From Clostridia bacterium (GTDB taxonomy: Bacteria; Bacillota; Clostridia; Christensenellales; UMGS416), in assembly GCA_016938675.1 (NCBI GenBank), contig JAFGUF010000022.1:1-64000 (forward strand): a stretch of 64,000 nucleotides of DNA, read 5' to 3'. Below are positions 48,547-54,095 of this stretch, piece after piece. Under the pieces are notes generated by a model. The model had not been told where the DNA came from. It saw nothing but the letters and a program-made list of their open reading frames with translations, and did not search any database. Within the stretch, counting starts at the first letter, position 1, and every line of letters starts with the position of its first letter. The position numbers and the translations under genes are program-made.

Positions 48547-49599
48547 ATGAAAATAACAATGTTAGGGAATTCCTCAGCCGGCAAAACCGTATACATGTCA
48601 AGAATGGCACAAAGTTTTTATTATAATAATTATCATGGGTTTCAATTAGTAACTAAAAATGCTGAAGGCGAATATAGCTACTTGACACATCAATTACTTA
48701 CTAAAATTGATACCATAGAATCAAAAAACAAATTCCCTGCCGGAACAGATAAATCTACAATCATGAATTTCTTCTTACAATTTAATTATCAAAAAATACT
48801 TGATATTGATTGGATTGATTACAAAGGTGGTAGTCTTGAAGAAATAACAAAAGAAGAAATTAATGAAGATGAAAACTTGGAAATTGAGTCAGTTATTCTT
48901 GCAAGCCATGCTCTGATGATATTCATCGATAGTGTAGTTATTTCCGAAAATTATAGTACTATAAGAAAGCAGACTTTGATTGGAGAAAGGAATATTCTTG
49001 AGATACTTAGAAAAGCAATGCAGCTAAATAAAACAGACTTGAGCATTTTATTTGTACTTACAAAGAGTGACTCTGATTTGCTCAGTGAAGACCAGACTAG
49101 TAAATTAATTGAAACCGCTAAGGAGTTGTATACACAATTGTTGCATGAGGGACGAAAATACAATTGGAAATTTAGTTTCATAAAAATCGGTTGCGTAGGT
49201 AAAAAAAATATTAAAACAACTCGTAATATAAGTCACGATAATTCACGATATAATTATGAAGTTGAGATAGTATCACCTATTACAGAATCATATAATATTG
49301 AAAAAACCCTTATCGTTTGCTTAAAAGATTGTTGTGAAATGCAATTAGAAATTGAGAAAAGCAACTTCAATTCAAACGCCCTTAGACTTGATGAATTGAT
49401 AACAAAAAATGCAACAACATTCGCAAAACTTATAGACCTTTTATTTGGAAAATCACAAAGGCAGTTGGAAATTGAAGATGTAAAAGAAAAAATGCAAAAC
49501 GAAAAAAATCAAATTAAAAATCTTAAAGCCCATCTACCGCTTTTTGAAAGAATATTGAACGGAGTAGACCATGAAGTCGAATTATATACTATATACTAG
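48547..49599 (+). CDS. Uncharacterised P-loop GTPase-like protein of an accessory module
   Basis: 350 aa. G1/Walker A is GNSSAGKT (7-14), a DxxG G3 motif is found in WIDYKGG (Asp91-Gly94), and G4 is TKSD (172-175) after a hydrophobic strand ILFVLTKSD, so guanine specificity is plausible. A C-terminal coiled-coil-prone segment covers about 305-338 (EIEDVKEKMQNEKNQIKNLK). It resembles TRAFAC-type GTPases that comparative genomics places in predicted biological conflict systems; I cannot name the exact family. It overlaps the following gene by 29 bases. Composition is AT-rich: one 60-base line that I counted has 22% GC and another 35%. Confidence 0.72.
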   Translation: MKITMLGNSSAGKTVYMSRMAQSFYYNNYHGFQLVTKNAEGEYSYLTHQLLTKIDTIESKNKFPAGTDKSTIMNFFLQFNYQKILDIDWIDYKGGSLEEITKEEINEDENLEIESVILASHALMIFIDSVVISENYSTIRKQTLIGERNILEILRKAMQLNKTDLSILFVLTKSDSDLLSEDQTSKLIETAKELYTQLLHEGRKYNWKFSFIKIGCVGKKNIKTTRNISHDNSRYNYEVEIVSPITESYNIEKTLIVCLKDCCEMQLEIEKSNFNSNALRLDELITKNATTFAKLIDLLFGKSQRQLEIEDVKEKMQNEKNQIKNLKAHLPLFERILNGVDHEVELYTIY

Positions 49600-50221
49600 A
49601 ACCGAAAATCGTGATTATAGGTGGATATATAATATTGAAGGTAATGACGAGTTGAAAAAGCATTTACTATCGCACTATAGAAGTTATTCTAAAGATAGAG
49701 AACACCTGTATTATATAAATATAAATAATAATGCTTGCTTTTATAAAATCTTACACGCTCCTTGGCGAGATGGTTCTGGAAGAGATGTGTATATGCTGGA
49801 AGGGATAATATTTGAAAAAAAATGTATTTCCATCGTTGACAGGTTGCTGCCATATTTATTTTTATATTATCTCGAAAATCCTTTTTATGTCCCTTTGCTG
49901 CCTGCTGATGATGAATATAATGAAAAACAAAATATTGAAATCCAAATTGATCAAATTCTTGACAATGTAATCAATTGCTATTTATCTAATAATGAATATG
50001 CTAAATTGACAAGTGCTTTCAATACAAATAAATATGTAGAAAGCATAAATATGATCAATAGTGAGTTTAATATAGCTTTTTTTAACGATTCTACCAATGA
50101 CGCACAAACAAAAAGTTTGAACCCCGGTGTTTTCGATAATTCTGACAAAGACACAACAAAAAAAACATTTCAGCAACTAGTTGAGTTTATACAAATATTG
50201 GTCAAAAATTCTAAAAAATGA
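49571..50221 (+). CDS. Partner protein of the GTPase module, unknown family
   Basis: 216-aa soluble protein. The N-terminal half has a beta-rich pattern with LYTRTENRDYRWIYNIEG, REHLYYINI and CFYKILHAPWRDGSGRDVYM followed by LEGIIFEK. The C-terminal half is helical and ends in charged, Asn/Asp-rich sequence. The beginning overlaps the GTPase gene by 29 bases, so the two are translationally coupled and probably interact. Its position next to the GTPase is like that of GTPase-associated partner proteins in predicted conflict systems. No enzymatic motif was found. GC content is low, like the other two genes of the module. Confidence 0.65.
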   Translation: MKSNYILYTRTENRDYRWIYNIEGNDELKKHLLSHYRSYSKDREHLYYININNNACFYKILHAPWRDGSGRDVYMLEGIIFEKKCISIVDRLLPYLFLYYLENPFYVPLLPADDEYNEKQNIEIQIDQILDNVINCYLSNNEYAKLTSAFNTNKYVESINMINSEFNIAFFNDSTNDAQTKSLNPGVFDNSDKDTTKKTFQQLVEFIQILVKNSKK

Positions 50222-50984: not shown

Positions 50985-51836
50985 ATGAAGTGGATTAAAA
51001 GATTAGAAGAATGCGTTGACTACATTGAAGATAACCTAAAAGGCGAAATTGACATAGCCGTCCTATGCAGGATATCCTGCCTGTCGCGCCTCTATTTCCC
51101 CAGGCTCTTTGAGGCGGTAACAGATATACCCTTGAGCGAATATATCCGAAGGCGCCGCATGACACTGGCTGCCAGAGAGCTCTCCGAAGGGGATAAAAAG
51201 GTAATTGATGTTGCTTTCGACTATGGGTATTCAACACCAGAGAGTTTCTCAAGAGCTTTCAAGTCCGTGCATGGAGTTTCCCCATCCGTATTGAAGTCTG
51301 AGAACCCCAAAGTAAAATCCTACCCTAGGCTTGCCTTCGCAATATCTATAAAAGGAGATGCAGCAATGGACTATAAAATCATTGAAAAGGGCGCATTTGA
51401 TGTGCTGGGCTTATCATTAAGGACAACTGACAAGGATGGGAAAAACTTCAAAGAGATACCTGAGTTTTGGCAAAACATTTGCGTCGACGGAACAGATAAA
51501 GAACTCTGCAGGCTATCTGCTGATAACGAAACTATGTACGGCATATGCTTTGACCTAGAAGAAGATGGCTACTTTAAGTATGCGGCCGCTGTGCCCTACG
51601 CCGGAGGAGAAAAGGGCAGCTTTGAAGTTATGACTATACCTGCTGCTAAGTGGGCAATATTTGAATGCGTTGGCGCTATGCCGGACGCTATACAAAAAGT
51701 ATGGAAGAGGATATTCTCAGAATGGCTGCCCGCAACTGAGTTTGAAATGGAATCGCTTCCCCAAATTGAGATGTACTATCCCGGCGATAGCACACAGGAT
51801 GACTATCGCAGTGAAGTTTGGATTCCGGTGAAGTGA
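50985..51836 (+). CDS. AraC-family regulator with GyrI-like effector-binding domain
   Basis: 283-aa transcription factor. The AraC HTH pair is at about 8-105 (LCRISCLSRLYFPRLFEAVT, then EYIRRRRMTLAARELSEGDK and FDYGYSTPESFSRAFKSVHG). The C-terminal part (about 125-283) is a GyrI-like/effector-binding domain starting YKIIEKGAFDVLGLSLRT. Proteins with this layout (Rob, SoxS-like, BmrR-type ligand domain) sense amphipathic drugs or small molecules and activate efflux or detoxification genes. The target is not evident; no efflux gene is adjacent. GAAAGG precedes the start. Confidence 0.9.
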   Translation: MKWIKRLEECVDYIEDNLKGEIDIAVLCRISCLSRLYFPRLFEAVTDIPLSEYIRRRRMTLAARELSEGDKKVIDVAFDYGYSTPESFSRAFKSVHGVSPSVLKSENPKVKSYPRLAFAISIKGDAAMDYKIIEKGAFDVLGLSLRTTDKDGKNFKEIPEFWQNICVDGTDKELCRLSADNETMYGICFDLEEDGYFKYAAAVPYAGGEKGSFEVMTIPAAKWAIFECVGAMPDAIQKVWKRIFSEWLPATEFEMESLPQIEMYYPGDSTQDDYRSEVWIPVK

Positions 51837-51975: not shown

Positions 51976-52752
51976 ATGATTGCCACTATTACAAATAATA
52001 TCGATAACATTTTCTTTGATTTAGTTAAAAATTCTAGGAATAGTATAAAATTATGTGCTCCTTTTGTAAAAAAAGAGATTGTTGCAAAGATACTAGATTC
52101 CAAATCAGAAAACGTAGATGTTAAGCTCGTTACTAATTGTACATTGAATTACTTTCATAAGAAATCATCCGATATTGAGGCTTTAGAGCTTATGATAAAC
52201 AATTCATACATTGTTGCAAACCAGCAAAATCTACATGCTAAAATATACATTTTTGACGACAAGAAAGCAATCATTACATCCGCTAATCTTACATATTCAG
52301 GATTTAATAGAAACATTGAATATGGATTACTTACAGATGAAAGCAATTTAGTAGGAGAGGCGAAAAGCTTTTTGAAGAACATTATCGGTCAAGATAAAAA
52401 GAGCTATTTAGATTCTGAGCAGATAGCCACAATAAAAAAAATACTCCTTGATATTCCTCAAACACCGAAGTACGACATGAATCATGAAATTAGCGATATA
52501 TTTGAATCTGATAAAAAATATATCGCAGACAACTTAACCGGCTGGACAAAGCTTATTTTTTCTGCAATGGACACCATGGAAAATAAAATAATATCTCTTT
52601 CTGATTTTAATAGTTACTTTAGTTATTTTAAAAATCAGTATCCGAAAAACAATAATATTGAAGCAAAAATAAGGCAGCAATTGCAAGTACTCAGAAATAT
52701 TGGGCTGGTAAAATTTGAAGACAGGGGCGTATATAAAAAGCTTTGGATTTAA
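51976..52752 (+). CDS. Phospholipase D-like domain protein, single HKD motif
   Basis: 258-aa protein. One PLD-type motif HAKIYIFDDKKAIITSANLT (His near 77) is present, with SGFNRNIEYGL after it, so a homodimer would be needed to form a full active site, as in the Nuc/BfiI-type nucleases. The C-terminal ~90 residues (about 165-258) look like a helical/winged-helix domain, perhaps for DNA binding. Related stand-alone PLD proteins occur in restriction and defence loci, but no methyltransferase or helicase is adjacent. AGAGG precedes ATG. GC content is below that of the core genes. Confidence 0.78.
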   Translation: MIATITNNIDNIFFDLVKNSRNSIKLCAPFVKKEIVAKILDSKSENVDVKLVTNCTLNYFHKKSSDIEALELMINNSYIVANQQNLHAKIYIFDDKKAIITSANLTYSGFNRNIEYGLLTDESNLVGEAKSFLKNIIGQDKKSYLDSEQIATIKKILLDIPQTPKYDMNHEISDIFESDKKYIADNLTGWTKLIFSAMDTMENKIISLSDFNSYFSYFKNQYPKNNNIEAKIRQQLQVLRNIGLVKFEDRGVYKKLWI

Positions 52753-52771: not shown

Positions 52772-52800
52772 TTGCCCAATCTATATTAATATGCTATAAT
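52772..52800 (+). promoter_or_regulatory. Promoter of the rsgA leader transcript
   Basis: TTGCCC, 17-bp spacer, TATAAT, 30 bp before the leader-peptide ATG. Gives a leader RNA of about 205 bases before the rsgA start codon. Confidence 0.75.
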
Positions 52801-52830
52801 TAATCAAAATCTAAAAGGAGGACTTGTTTT

Positions 52831-52902
52831 ATGAGTGGAAAAGTTAATAAATTATCACATCGGAATGAACTCAAATCAGTCCTTAGGTTTAGGTACGAGT
52901 AA
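52831..52902 (+). CDS. Leader peptide (23 aa) controlling rsgA, with a C-terminal RFR arrest-like motif
   Basis: ATG-initiated 23-codon ORF with AAAAGGAGGACTTGTTTT directly upstream. The peptide begins MSGKVNKLSHRNELK and ends SVLRFRYE. It is followed after 37 bases by an intrinsic terminator and then by rsgA. The Arg-Phe-Arg sequence fits the (R/K)-x-(R/K) pattern that stalls macrolide-bound ribosomes in characterised erm leader peptides. The GGTTTAGG of its last codons could pair with CCTATACC (52934-52941), which overlaps the start of the terminator stem. Role in attenuation is inferred from this layout. Confidence 0.7.
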   Translation: MSGKVNKLSHRNELKSVLRFRYE

Positions 52903-52939
52903 GCAGATATTACTGTTTTACTCTTTATAATATCCTATA

Positions 52940-52968
52940 CCACAGGATTGACGCCTGTGGCATTTTTA
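52940..52968 (+). terminator. Attenuator terminator in front of rsgA
   Basis: Stem CCACAGG / CCTGTGG with loop ATTGACG, followed by CATTTTTAT. It lies between the leader ORF and rsgA, 45 bp before the rsgA ATG, with no other gene upstream for it to terminate except the leader. Confidence 0.78.
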
Positions 52969-53012
52969 TGCCCAAAATCATCAAAACATAAAAATATAAA
53001 AGGATACTATAA

Positions 53013-54095
53013 ATGAACAATTTAAAAATCACAGATTACGGCTACACTGATCAATTAAAAGAACAAGCATTGCAATATGGCGAATCATTAATTCCTGCCA
53101 GAATAACAGCAGTATTTCAGGGAATGTATGAAATAGCTACAGACTACGGTATATCAAAAGCAAAACTCAAGGGCAACTACATATTAAACAATCCTTCCGA
53201 AGAAATGATACCGACAGTAGGAGATTTTGTCCTGGTTGACTATCAGGAAGGCAGCATAAGCCCCATACACTATCTTTTGCCAAGGTCATCTATTTTGGCA
53301 AGGAAAGCGCCCACTGACAACAAGAAAAACAGCCAATTGATAGGCGCTAATATAGACTACGCTTTTATTGTGACATCCATGAACAAAGACTTCAGCGCTG
53401 GAAGAATAGAGCGCTATCTAACGGCTATATACCAAGCCGGAATAACCCCTATACTGCTGCTTAGCAAAAGCGACCTTGCTGATAATATCAATGAATACCT
53501 CGCAATGGCAGGCGATGCAGCGCCCGGAGTGGACGTGATATGTAACTCCACAGTTACAATGGAAGGGATGAAAGAACTGAGTGAAATGCTTGTAAAAGGC
53601 AAAACGGTTATATTCATAGGTTCATCAGGCGTAGGGAAATCATCGCTGCTAAATGCAGTGGCAGGCACAGAAATAATGCAGGTAAATGATATACGCGAAG
53701 ATGATGCCAGAGGCAGGCACACAACCACGCATAGGCAGCTACTCATGCTAGATAGCGGCTGTATGCTAATCGACACACCCGGTATGAGGGAATTTTCACT
53801 AATTGAAACAGGTAGCGGCGTGGATGAAACATTCAGCGACATACACGAATTGGCACAGCAATGCCATTTCTCTGATTGCTCGCATGGCAAGGAAATAAAG
53901 TGCGCAGTAAAAAACGCAATAGATGAAGGCCGGCTGGATCCTAAAAGGCTCATCCAATACAACAAGCAAAAGAAGGTAGAAGAATTCTATGAAAAAAAGG
54001 ACTACCTTAAAAACAAGGAAAAAACGATGAAAAAATACTTTGAAATTGGCCGTGAGGCGAGAAAAAGAAAAAATTACGACGGCTACGATTATTAA
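53013..54095 (+). CDS. rsgA: Ribosome small-subunit-dependent GTPase A (RsgA paralogue)
   Basis: 360-aa circularly permuted GTPase that acts in late 30S maturation. Order: OB-fold (about 25-100), G4 LLLSKSD (about 150), G1 GSSGVGKSSLLN (about 203-214), switch region GRHTTTHRQLLM, G3 DTPGMREF and a zinc-binding domain with CHFSDCSHGKEIKC. The C-terminus is rich in Lys and Glu. In Firmicutes the usual rsgA lies beside prpC/prkC/rpe; this copy stands alone behind an antibiotic-type attenuator, so it may be a second, stress-induced RsgA. Whether the genome has another copy cannot be seen here. Confidence 0.92.
   Translation: MNNLKITDYGYTDQLKEQALQYGESLIPARITAVFQGMYEIATDYGISKAKLKGNYILNNPSEEMIPTVGDFVLVDYQEGSISPIHYLLPRSSILARKAPTDNKKNSQLIGANIDYAFIVTSMNKDFSAGRIERYLTAIYQAGITPILLLSKSDLADNINEYLAMAGDAAPGVDVICNSTVTMEGMKELSEMLVKGKTVIFIGSSGVGKSSLLNAVAGTEIMQVNDIREDDARGRHTTTHRQLLMLDSGCMLIDTPGMREFSLIETGSGVDETFSDIHELAQQCHFSDCSHGKEIKCAVKNAIDEGRLDPKRLIQYNKQKKVEEFYEKKDYLKNKEKTMKKYFEIGREARKRKNYDGYDY

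Follow-up and report, generated by a model that had tools for sequence, protein, structure and literature searches.

A candidate ribosome-sensing leader with an upstream open reading frame before rsgA2, a second rsgA gene of a Clostridia bacterium

Described attenuators and the rsgA2 leader

The erm leaders (e.g., ermC and ermK) combine a leader peptide with mutually exclusive hairpins. A peptide and exclusive hairpins are also predicted in the leader of rsgA2, a second rsgA gene in a Clostridia bacterium (assembly GCA_016938675.1, contig JAFGUF010000022.1), and the erm leaders differ from it in their drug- and peptide-specific late arrest, which is unsupported for the rsgA2 leader. The window analyzed here is the 64,000-nucleotide stretch at positions 1-64,000 of the contig's forward strand; the locus occupies 52,772-54,095, and all of its features lie on the plus strand. 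An attenuator with a leader upstream open reading frame (uORF) very likely controls this rsgA paralogue, and the attenuator probably senses stalled ribosomes.

In hflXr/rli80 of Listeria monocytogenes, the uORF overlaps an anti-antiterminator and stalled ribosomes lead to read-through, as tested experimentally (PMC6310831). This system and uORFC-6-1 before hflX (PMC8632094) resemble the rsgA2 leader in having a ribosome GTPase paralogue as target, a short uORF, and a terminator, antiterminator and anti-antiterminator, the last of these being overlapped by the uORF. The resemblance of hflXr is one of plan; HflX is a ribosome-splitting factor rather than an RsgA, and the RLR of the hflXr peptide is tied to macrolide sensing. 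For the uORFs of the ARE ABC-F genes vmlR, cplR and vga(A), arrest at the start codon has been attributed to lincosamides and pleuromutilins (PMC12121999). A ribosome held on the first codons, largely independent of the peptide, is also the trigger predicted for RsgA2, whereas the target of these leaders is an ABC-F resistance factor and not a 30S-assembly GTPase. The toiL uORF of E. coli topAI is arrested at its start codon by tetracycline and retapamulin (PMC12121999), and start-codon arrest by tetracycline would be the shared element. Stalling on toiL opens one repressive hairpin, whereas the class I leaders of RsgA2 described below contain two competing hairpins and are predicted to be closed when the second half of the uORF is translated.

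A second RsgA is also present in Streptomyces coelicolor, where the RsgA/EngC paralogue SCO6149, a member of the WblC/WhiB7 regulon, is activated by WblC and induced by the ribosome-targeting drug tetracycline (PMC7157823). Control of SCO6149 differs in that it lies with an activator protein, and the passage on it describes no cis leader. By analogy, the tetracycline induction of SCO6149 is consistent with a translation-stress role for RsgA2. The earlier note on this DNA knew of no described rsgA with control by a leader uORF, and we likewise found no published rsgA leader of this kind in a search of the open-access literature that did not reach a 2016 Term-seq paper on antibiotic ribo-regulation, where an induced rsgA may be listed. 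The rsgA2 leaders would extend uORF attenuation to a new target family (RsgA2) and include a previously undescribed RNA class.

The window leader and its predicted switch

The rsgA2 gene (53013-54095, ATG 53013) encodes a circularly permuted RsgA-family GTPase of 360 amino acids. Its product scored above cut-off with PF03193 (166.8 bits) and TIGR00157 (162 bits), and the GTPase motifs and Cys/His zinc ligands are invariant in the protein alignment; the permuted GTPase domain, the profile scores and the zinc ligands together place it in the RsgA family. The canonical RsgA of the same genome is encoded on another contig (213 bits vs 163 for RsgA2), and RsgA2 proteins split from canonical RsgA in the tree with 100/100 support. 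The gene is therefore a true RsgA paralogue, as had been suggested from the sequence, and we named its product RsgA2. On a Lysinibacillus plasmid (L017, 1498-3020), RsgA2 is followed immediately by fosM, a fosfomycin resistance gene.

The leader anatomy, established by computation, agrees with the earlier description of a promoter, a near-perfect Shine-Dalgarno (SD) sequence, a 23-codon reading frame ending in LRFRYE and a 7-bp terminator before rsgA. The promoter (52772-52800) matches the consensus at 10 of 12 positions and has TTGCCC (52772-52777) and TATAAT (52795-52800) separated by a 17-nt gap, with the TG of an extended -10 preceding TATAAT. The SD sequence AAGGAGG (52815-52821) is followed by the uORF (52831-52902; ATG 52831, TAA 52902), whose 23 codons specify MSGKVNKLSHRNELKSVLRFRYE, with RFR at codons 19-21. 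The intrinsic terminator (52940-52966), located by hairpin search and folding, consists of the hairpin CCACAGG-7-CCTGTGG (52940-52960) followed by CATTTTTATG, and the SD sequence of rsgA2 itself, AAGGA, is at 53000-53004. The whole leader folds at -49.8 kcal/mol compared with -32.8 kcal/mol for shuffles (z -4.95), and none of 200 shuffles folded as low.

Ribosome position was modeled by an equilibrium calculation, without transcription or translation kinetics, in which a ribosome was placed at each codon of RNA extending up to the T run. The probability of the terminator was 0.99 on ribosome-free RNA, 0.09, 0.12 and 0.14 with the ribosome on codons 1, 2 and 3, and 1.00 with the ribosome on codons 19-21 or on the stop codon. 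Results for codons 1 and 2 were robust across five footprint sizes whereas that for codon 3 was not, and an additional dip at approximately codons 10-12 was footprint-dependent. In the OFF state, which is the ribosome-free minimum free energy structure, the region of the uORF SD (52809-52824) pairs with 52878-52894. This anti-antiterminator (52809-52894) is built from 52809-52815 with 52888-52894 and 52818-52824 with 52878-52884, joining the SD to codons 16-22, and AAGGAGG itself is sequestered by codons 16-18. In the ON state, the fold predicted with a ribosome on codons 1-3, an antiterminator (52876-52951) forms from 52876-52883 (TCAGTCCT) with 52944-52951 (AGGATTGA) and from 52886-52893 (GGTTTAGG) with 52934-52941 (CCTATACC); the two helices take AGG and CC from the terminator stem and enclose a hairpin at 52897-52923. 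The window leader thus shares with hflXr and vmlR an SD-bearing short reading frame between promoter and terminator and, as judged by folding, a terminator and an antiterminator that exclude each other, the choice between them depending on where the ribosome sits.

Pairing of GGTTTAGG with CCTATACC had been singled out in the earlier note. It is a real possible helix of 7 bp; in the model it forms alongside the second helix, of 8 bp, when the ribosome is on codons 1-3 and makes up only half of the predicted antiterminator. As the sole antiterminator it was rejected, its probability in the full-length RNA being only 0.00-0.02. The terminator hairpin is present in every prediction for that full-length RNA, and a helix of ~52924-52936 with ~52999-53011 (52924-53011) partly occludes the rsgA2 SD (mean unpaired probability 0.38). 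A second, translational layer of control is therefore possible, in which this helix may restrain the read-through RNA a second time.

We infer a mechanism in which the leader is translated and arrest on its early codons is the signal. On ribosome-free RNA, pairing of the SD with codons 16-22 would occupy the antiterminator strands, and the terminator would halt transcription. A ribosome in transit would either cover the antiterminator strand or leave the SD helix intact, and termination would persist. A ribosome that stalls at the first codons, as may result from lincosamides, pleuromutilins, tetracycline or other initiation-stage inhibitors, would block the SD and leave codons 15-21 free to pair with 52934-52951; this pairing would take part of the terminator stem, and polymerase would read into rsgA2. 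RsgA2, whose role on the 30S subunit is presumed from family membership, would then aid 30S maturation or clear 30S subunits under drug stress.

Recurrence of uORF leaders before RsgA2 and related genes

In searches with the leader peptide, the only low-E match in the window's family or among 396 genomes of its order was the peptide itself; weak matches were inspected and attributed to chance, and plasmid and phage collections gave none. In all four RsgA2-holding relatives of the family, a promoter-like sequence, an SD, a short uORF counterpart and a terminator precede RsgA2, with unrelated peptides (MLYRAMREIPS, MRVLKGFTTV, MMGEFVKAGFALR and one beginning MLSKSNDLTMSILIKPFRR, the start of which is less certain). 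Conservation of the peptide among relatives that keep the terminator, which the earlier note had made a test of its proposal, was thus not observed, whereas a uORF together with a terminator was kept.

To place this arrangement in a wider sample, 251 RsgA2 loci were compared with 20 control stretches, each 20 kb long and drawn from a genome of the window's order. A search of genome contigs for RsgA2 with a single protein had returned nothing and was repeated with an alignment as query. With spacers of at least 250 nt, an ATG uORF and an SD of at least 5 bases as criteria, a strong-SD uORF preceded 49% of Firmicutes RsgA2 genes compared to ~3% of control genes; in composition-matched dinucleotide shuffles the figure was 4%. 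In the window's own order the counts were 10 of 15 (67%) vs 2 of 73 control genes (Fisher p = 4e-8); such p-values are somewhat optimistic because gene starts were set by rule and related genomes were counted separately. A uORF combined with a terminator was present before 57% of RsgA2 genes and 7% of controls. This recurrence of uORFs before RsgA2 is established by computation. The early-stall switch itself was found at 8 of 64 uORF-terminator loci, the window included, vs 9 of 512 shuffles. No rsgA2 leader gave an Rfam match above the gathering score, the only hits, a SAM riboswitch and a tRNA, falling in other parts of two loci.

Among 143 RsgA2 leaders, an [ED]-[IVLS]-[VAI] core was enriched (55 vs 17.4 +/- 3.5 in shuffles), whereas [KR]x[KR] was not (19 vs 25.5 +/- 4.0). 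The leaders were sorted into classes by inspection. Class I leaders have ~18 codons, end ~55 nt before rsgA2 and follow the consensus M-x5-7-[ED]-[IS]-V-x3-G-E-V-x2-3; class II leaders have ~10 codons of the MTALYEVIVS type and carry one or two terminators. Further types are represented by MSVEMMNMNVLTKYFMKTSVYDK and MMKFYLTYEPLVLCREGKQVY. A distinct actinobacterial type, of which MAEFTFHPQPTSTIVREP is an example, is common to Nocardiopsis RsgA2 genes (L055, L071 and L074).

In an alignment of 40 class I sequences, B (CCTCCC) is the partner of segment A (GGGAGG, codons 13-15) and D is that of A0 (the E-I-V codons). The two pairings build one long hairpin in which the rsgA2 SD (segment C) stays free; in the alternative, B pairs with C and hides the SD. 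The covariation score was 0.210, compared with 0.140 +/- 0.011 in shuffles and 0.07-0.11 for slid structures, and 0 of 500 shuffles were as high for score, cells paired or double changes. An alignment-free test of own vs swapped partners, using 33 class I sequences less than 80% alike, gave z values of -9.4 for A:B, -4.3 for the competing B:C and -3.1 for A0:D, although these may be inflated by shared ancestry. Covariation and switch design in class I are thereby established computationally. On average, the rsgA2 SD was unpaired with a probability of 0.47 when no ribosome was present, ~0.45-0.54 when one occupied the early codons and 0.03 when one was in the second half. From this dependence of SD exposure on ribosome position, we predict that rsgA2 is shut when the second half of the uORF is translated and opened when the ribosome is arrested early or absent. 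Pairing, the peptide or both may be the reason why the E-I-V codons are conserved.

The covariance model R1, built from class I, matched 29 of 396 genomes of the phylum, mostly exactly before RsgA2. Other matches were found before GNAT acetyltransferases (L313, L317, L323 and L324) and RNHCP-domain proteins (L320, L321 and L326), and three had no clear partner (L322, L325 and L327). The element of L327 (1501-1617) has a class I uORF and B segment with no RsgA2 after it, is near-identical to a genuine copy in the same genome and is probably a truncated duplicate. Several uORFs in the GNAT and RNHCP leaders stop directly after the E-I-V motif (e.g., MKKNYKMEIVY), which hints at a role for the peptide or the termination site as well. 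Independently of the leaders, RsgA2 carries an N-terminal GNAT domain on a Roseburia plasmid (L019, 874-2454), and two genomes of the window's order (L120 and L121, minus strand) encode it with an RNHCP domain fused at the C terminus. Since leaders are shared and domains fused, this link, itself established by computation, is good evidence that RsgA2, GNAT and RNHCP are functionally linked. Neither GNAT nor RNHCP partners were found in the window's own genome, the GNAT search having been run without a positive control.

Elsewhere in the window, 51976-52752 encodes a PLD-type nuclease domain with a DpnI_C (Dam-replacing) helix-turn-helix, DrmC-like in PADLOC, and is possibly a methyl-directed restriction or defence protein. 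An AraC regulator bearing a GyrI/Cass2 small-molecule binding domain lies at 50985-51836, and at 48547-50221 a DO-GTPase-like protein overlaps a 216-amino-acid protein without any family match.

Competing explanations and significance

On balance we favor the reading that a ribosome-sensing transcription attenuator controls RsgA2 within a translation-stress response, which we consider rather probable. Several observations weigh against it. The mechanism and the inducer are computational predictions throughout, an equally strong switch arose in 7 of 400 shuffles of the window leader (chance ~2%), and 56 of 64 terminator-type relatives, including the four family relatives, lacked the early-stall switch in equilibrium folding, because of which the direction of control is unproved for the group. 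The leader peptide has no homologue and the third-position bias of codon changes is modest (42% in class I, 47% in class II), so the case for uORF translation rests on the conserved SD, start and stop. Model R1 missed the window leader, its best score in the window being 12.2 bits (E 1.4) at another place; the window leader was therefore rejected as a class I member, and descent of the two from one ancestral element is only a possibility. The T run of the terminator is also short and rather weak (5 T), and terminator-like matches are as frequent in the region as expected by chance (3 found, 3.0 expected). The last two points would suit a locus without regulation, in which the uORF is fortuitous and the terminator either serves the upstream gene or lacks the strength to function; yet the hairpin lies 140 nt 3' of a good promoter match, and the fold z score and the strong recurrence of uORFs before RsgA2 make such an absence of regulation improbable.

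In the model that follows from the earlier note, macrolide-dependent arrest at R-F-R would bring about antitermination, as in the erm/msrD/yxjB type. RFR does match the known +x+ arrest motif; RYR is the site of tylosin stalling in B. subtilis, and R/K-x-R/K that of erythromycin stalling (PMC12121999), and hflXr leaders contain RLR (PMC6310831). A ribosome on codons 19-21, however, covers the antiterminator strand and leaves the terminator fully formed rather than favoring the ON structure, neither the peptide nor its RFR motif is conserved, and +x+ is unenriched in RsgA2 leaders, all of which sets the window leader outside the +x+ macrolide-arrest class. We consider RFR arrest a poor candidate for the trigger, whereas the broader idea that stalled ribosomes control rsgA is considerably strengthened by the uORF recurrence and the folding switch. 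Feedback on initiation capacity, in which an untranslated leader (few active 30S subunits) rather than arrest turns RsgA2 on, so that scarcity of 30S leads to production of a 30S maturation factor, would suit class I, where the rsgA SD is open on ribosome-free RNA and closed when the second half is translated. It is unlikely, as the window terminator forms on ribosome-free RNA, which is the opposite sign, and class I may respond to early arrest too. Ordinary attenuation by amino acids or uncharged tRNA (Arg, Leu or Ser codons) could draw on the three Arg, three Leu, three Ser and three Lys codons of the uORF, but there is no codon run, the leaders share no residue beyond the [ED]-x-V core, and the controlled gene is not metabolic, leaving this explanation with hardly any probability.

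If ribosome-sensing attenuation of RsgA2 is correct, 30S assembly would be tied to the sensing of ribosome-targeting drugs or ribosome stress, which would explain the second rsgA in many bacteria. RsgA2 would form a testable candidate class of intrinsic-tolerance factors on the small subunit, and the shared leader offers a hypothesis for the GNAT group and the RNHCP family. More tentatively, and with somewhat less confidence than in the attenuator itself, Firmicutes may possess a previously undescribed cis-RNA-controlled translation-stress regulon in which RsgA2, GNAT and RNHCP proteins, sometimes fused, stand behind related uORF leaders that read ribosome position. In this regulon RsgA2 would be either a 30S factor specific to stress or a factor that protects the 30S side against drugs, and would correspond there to HflXr and the ABC-F proteins, which act on the 50S side.
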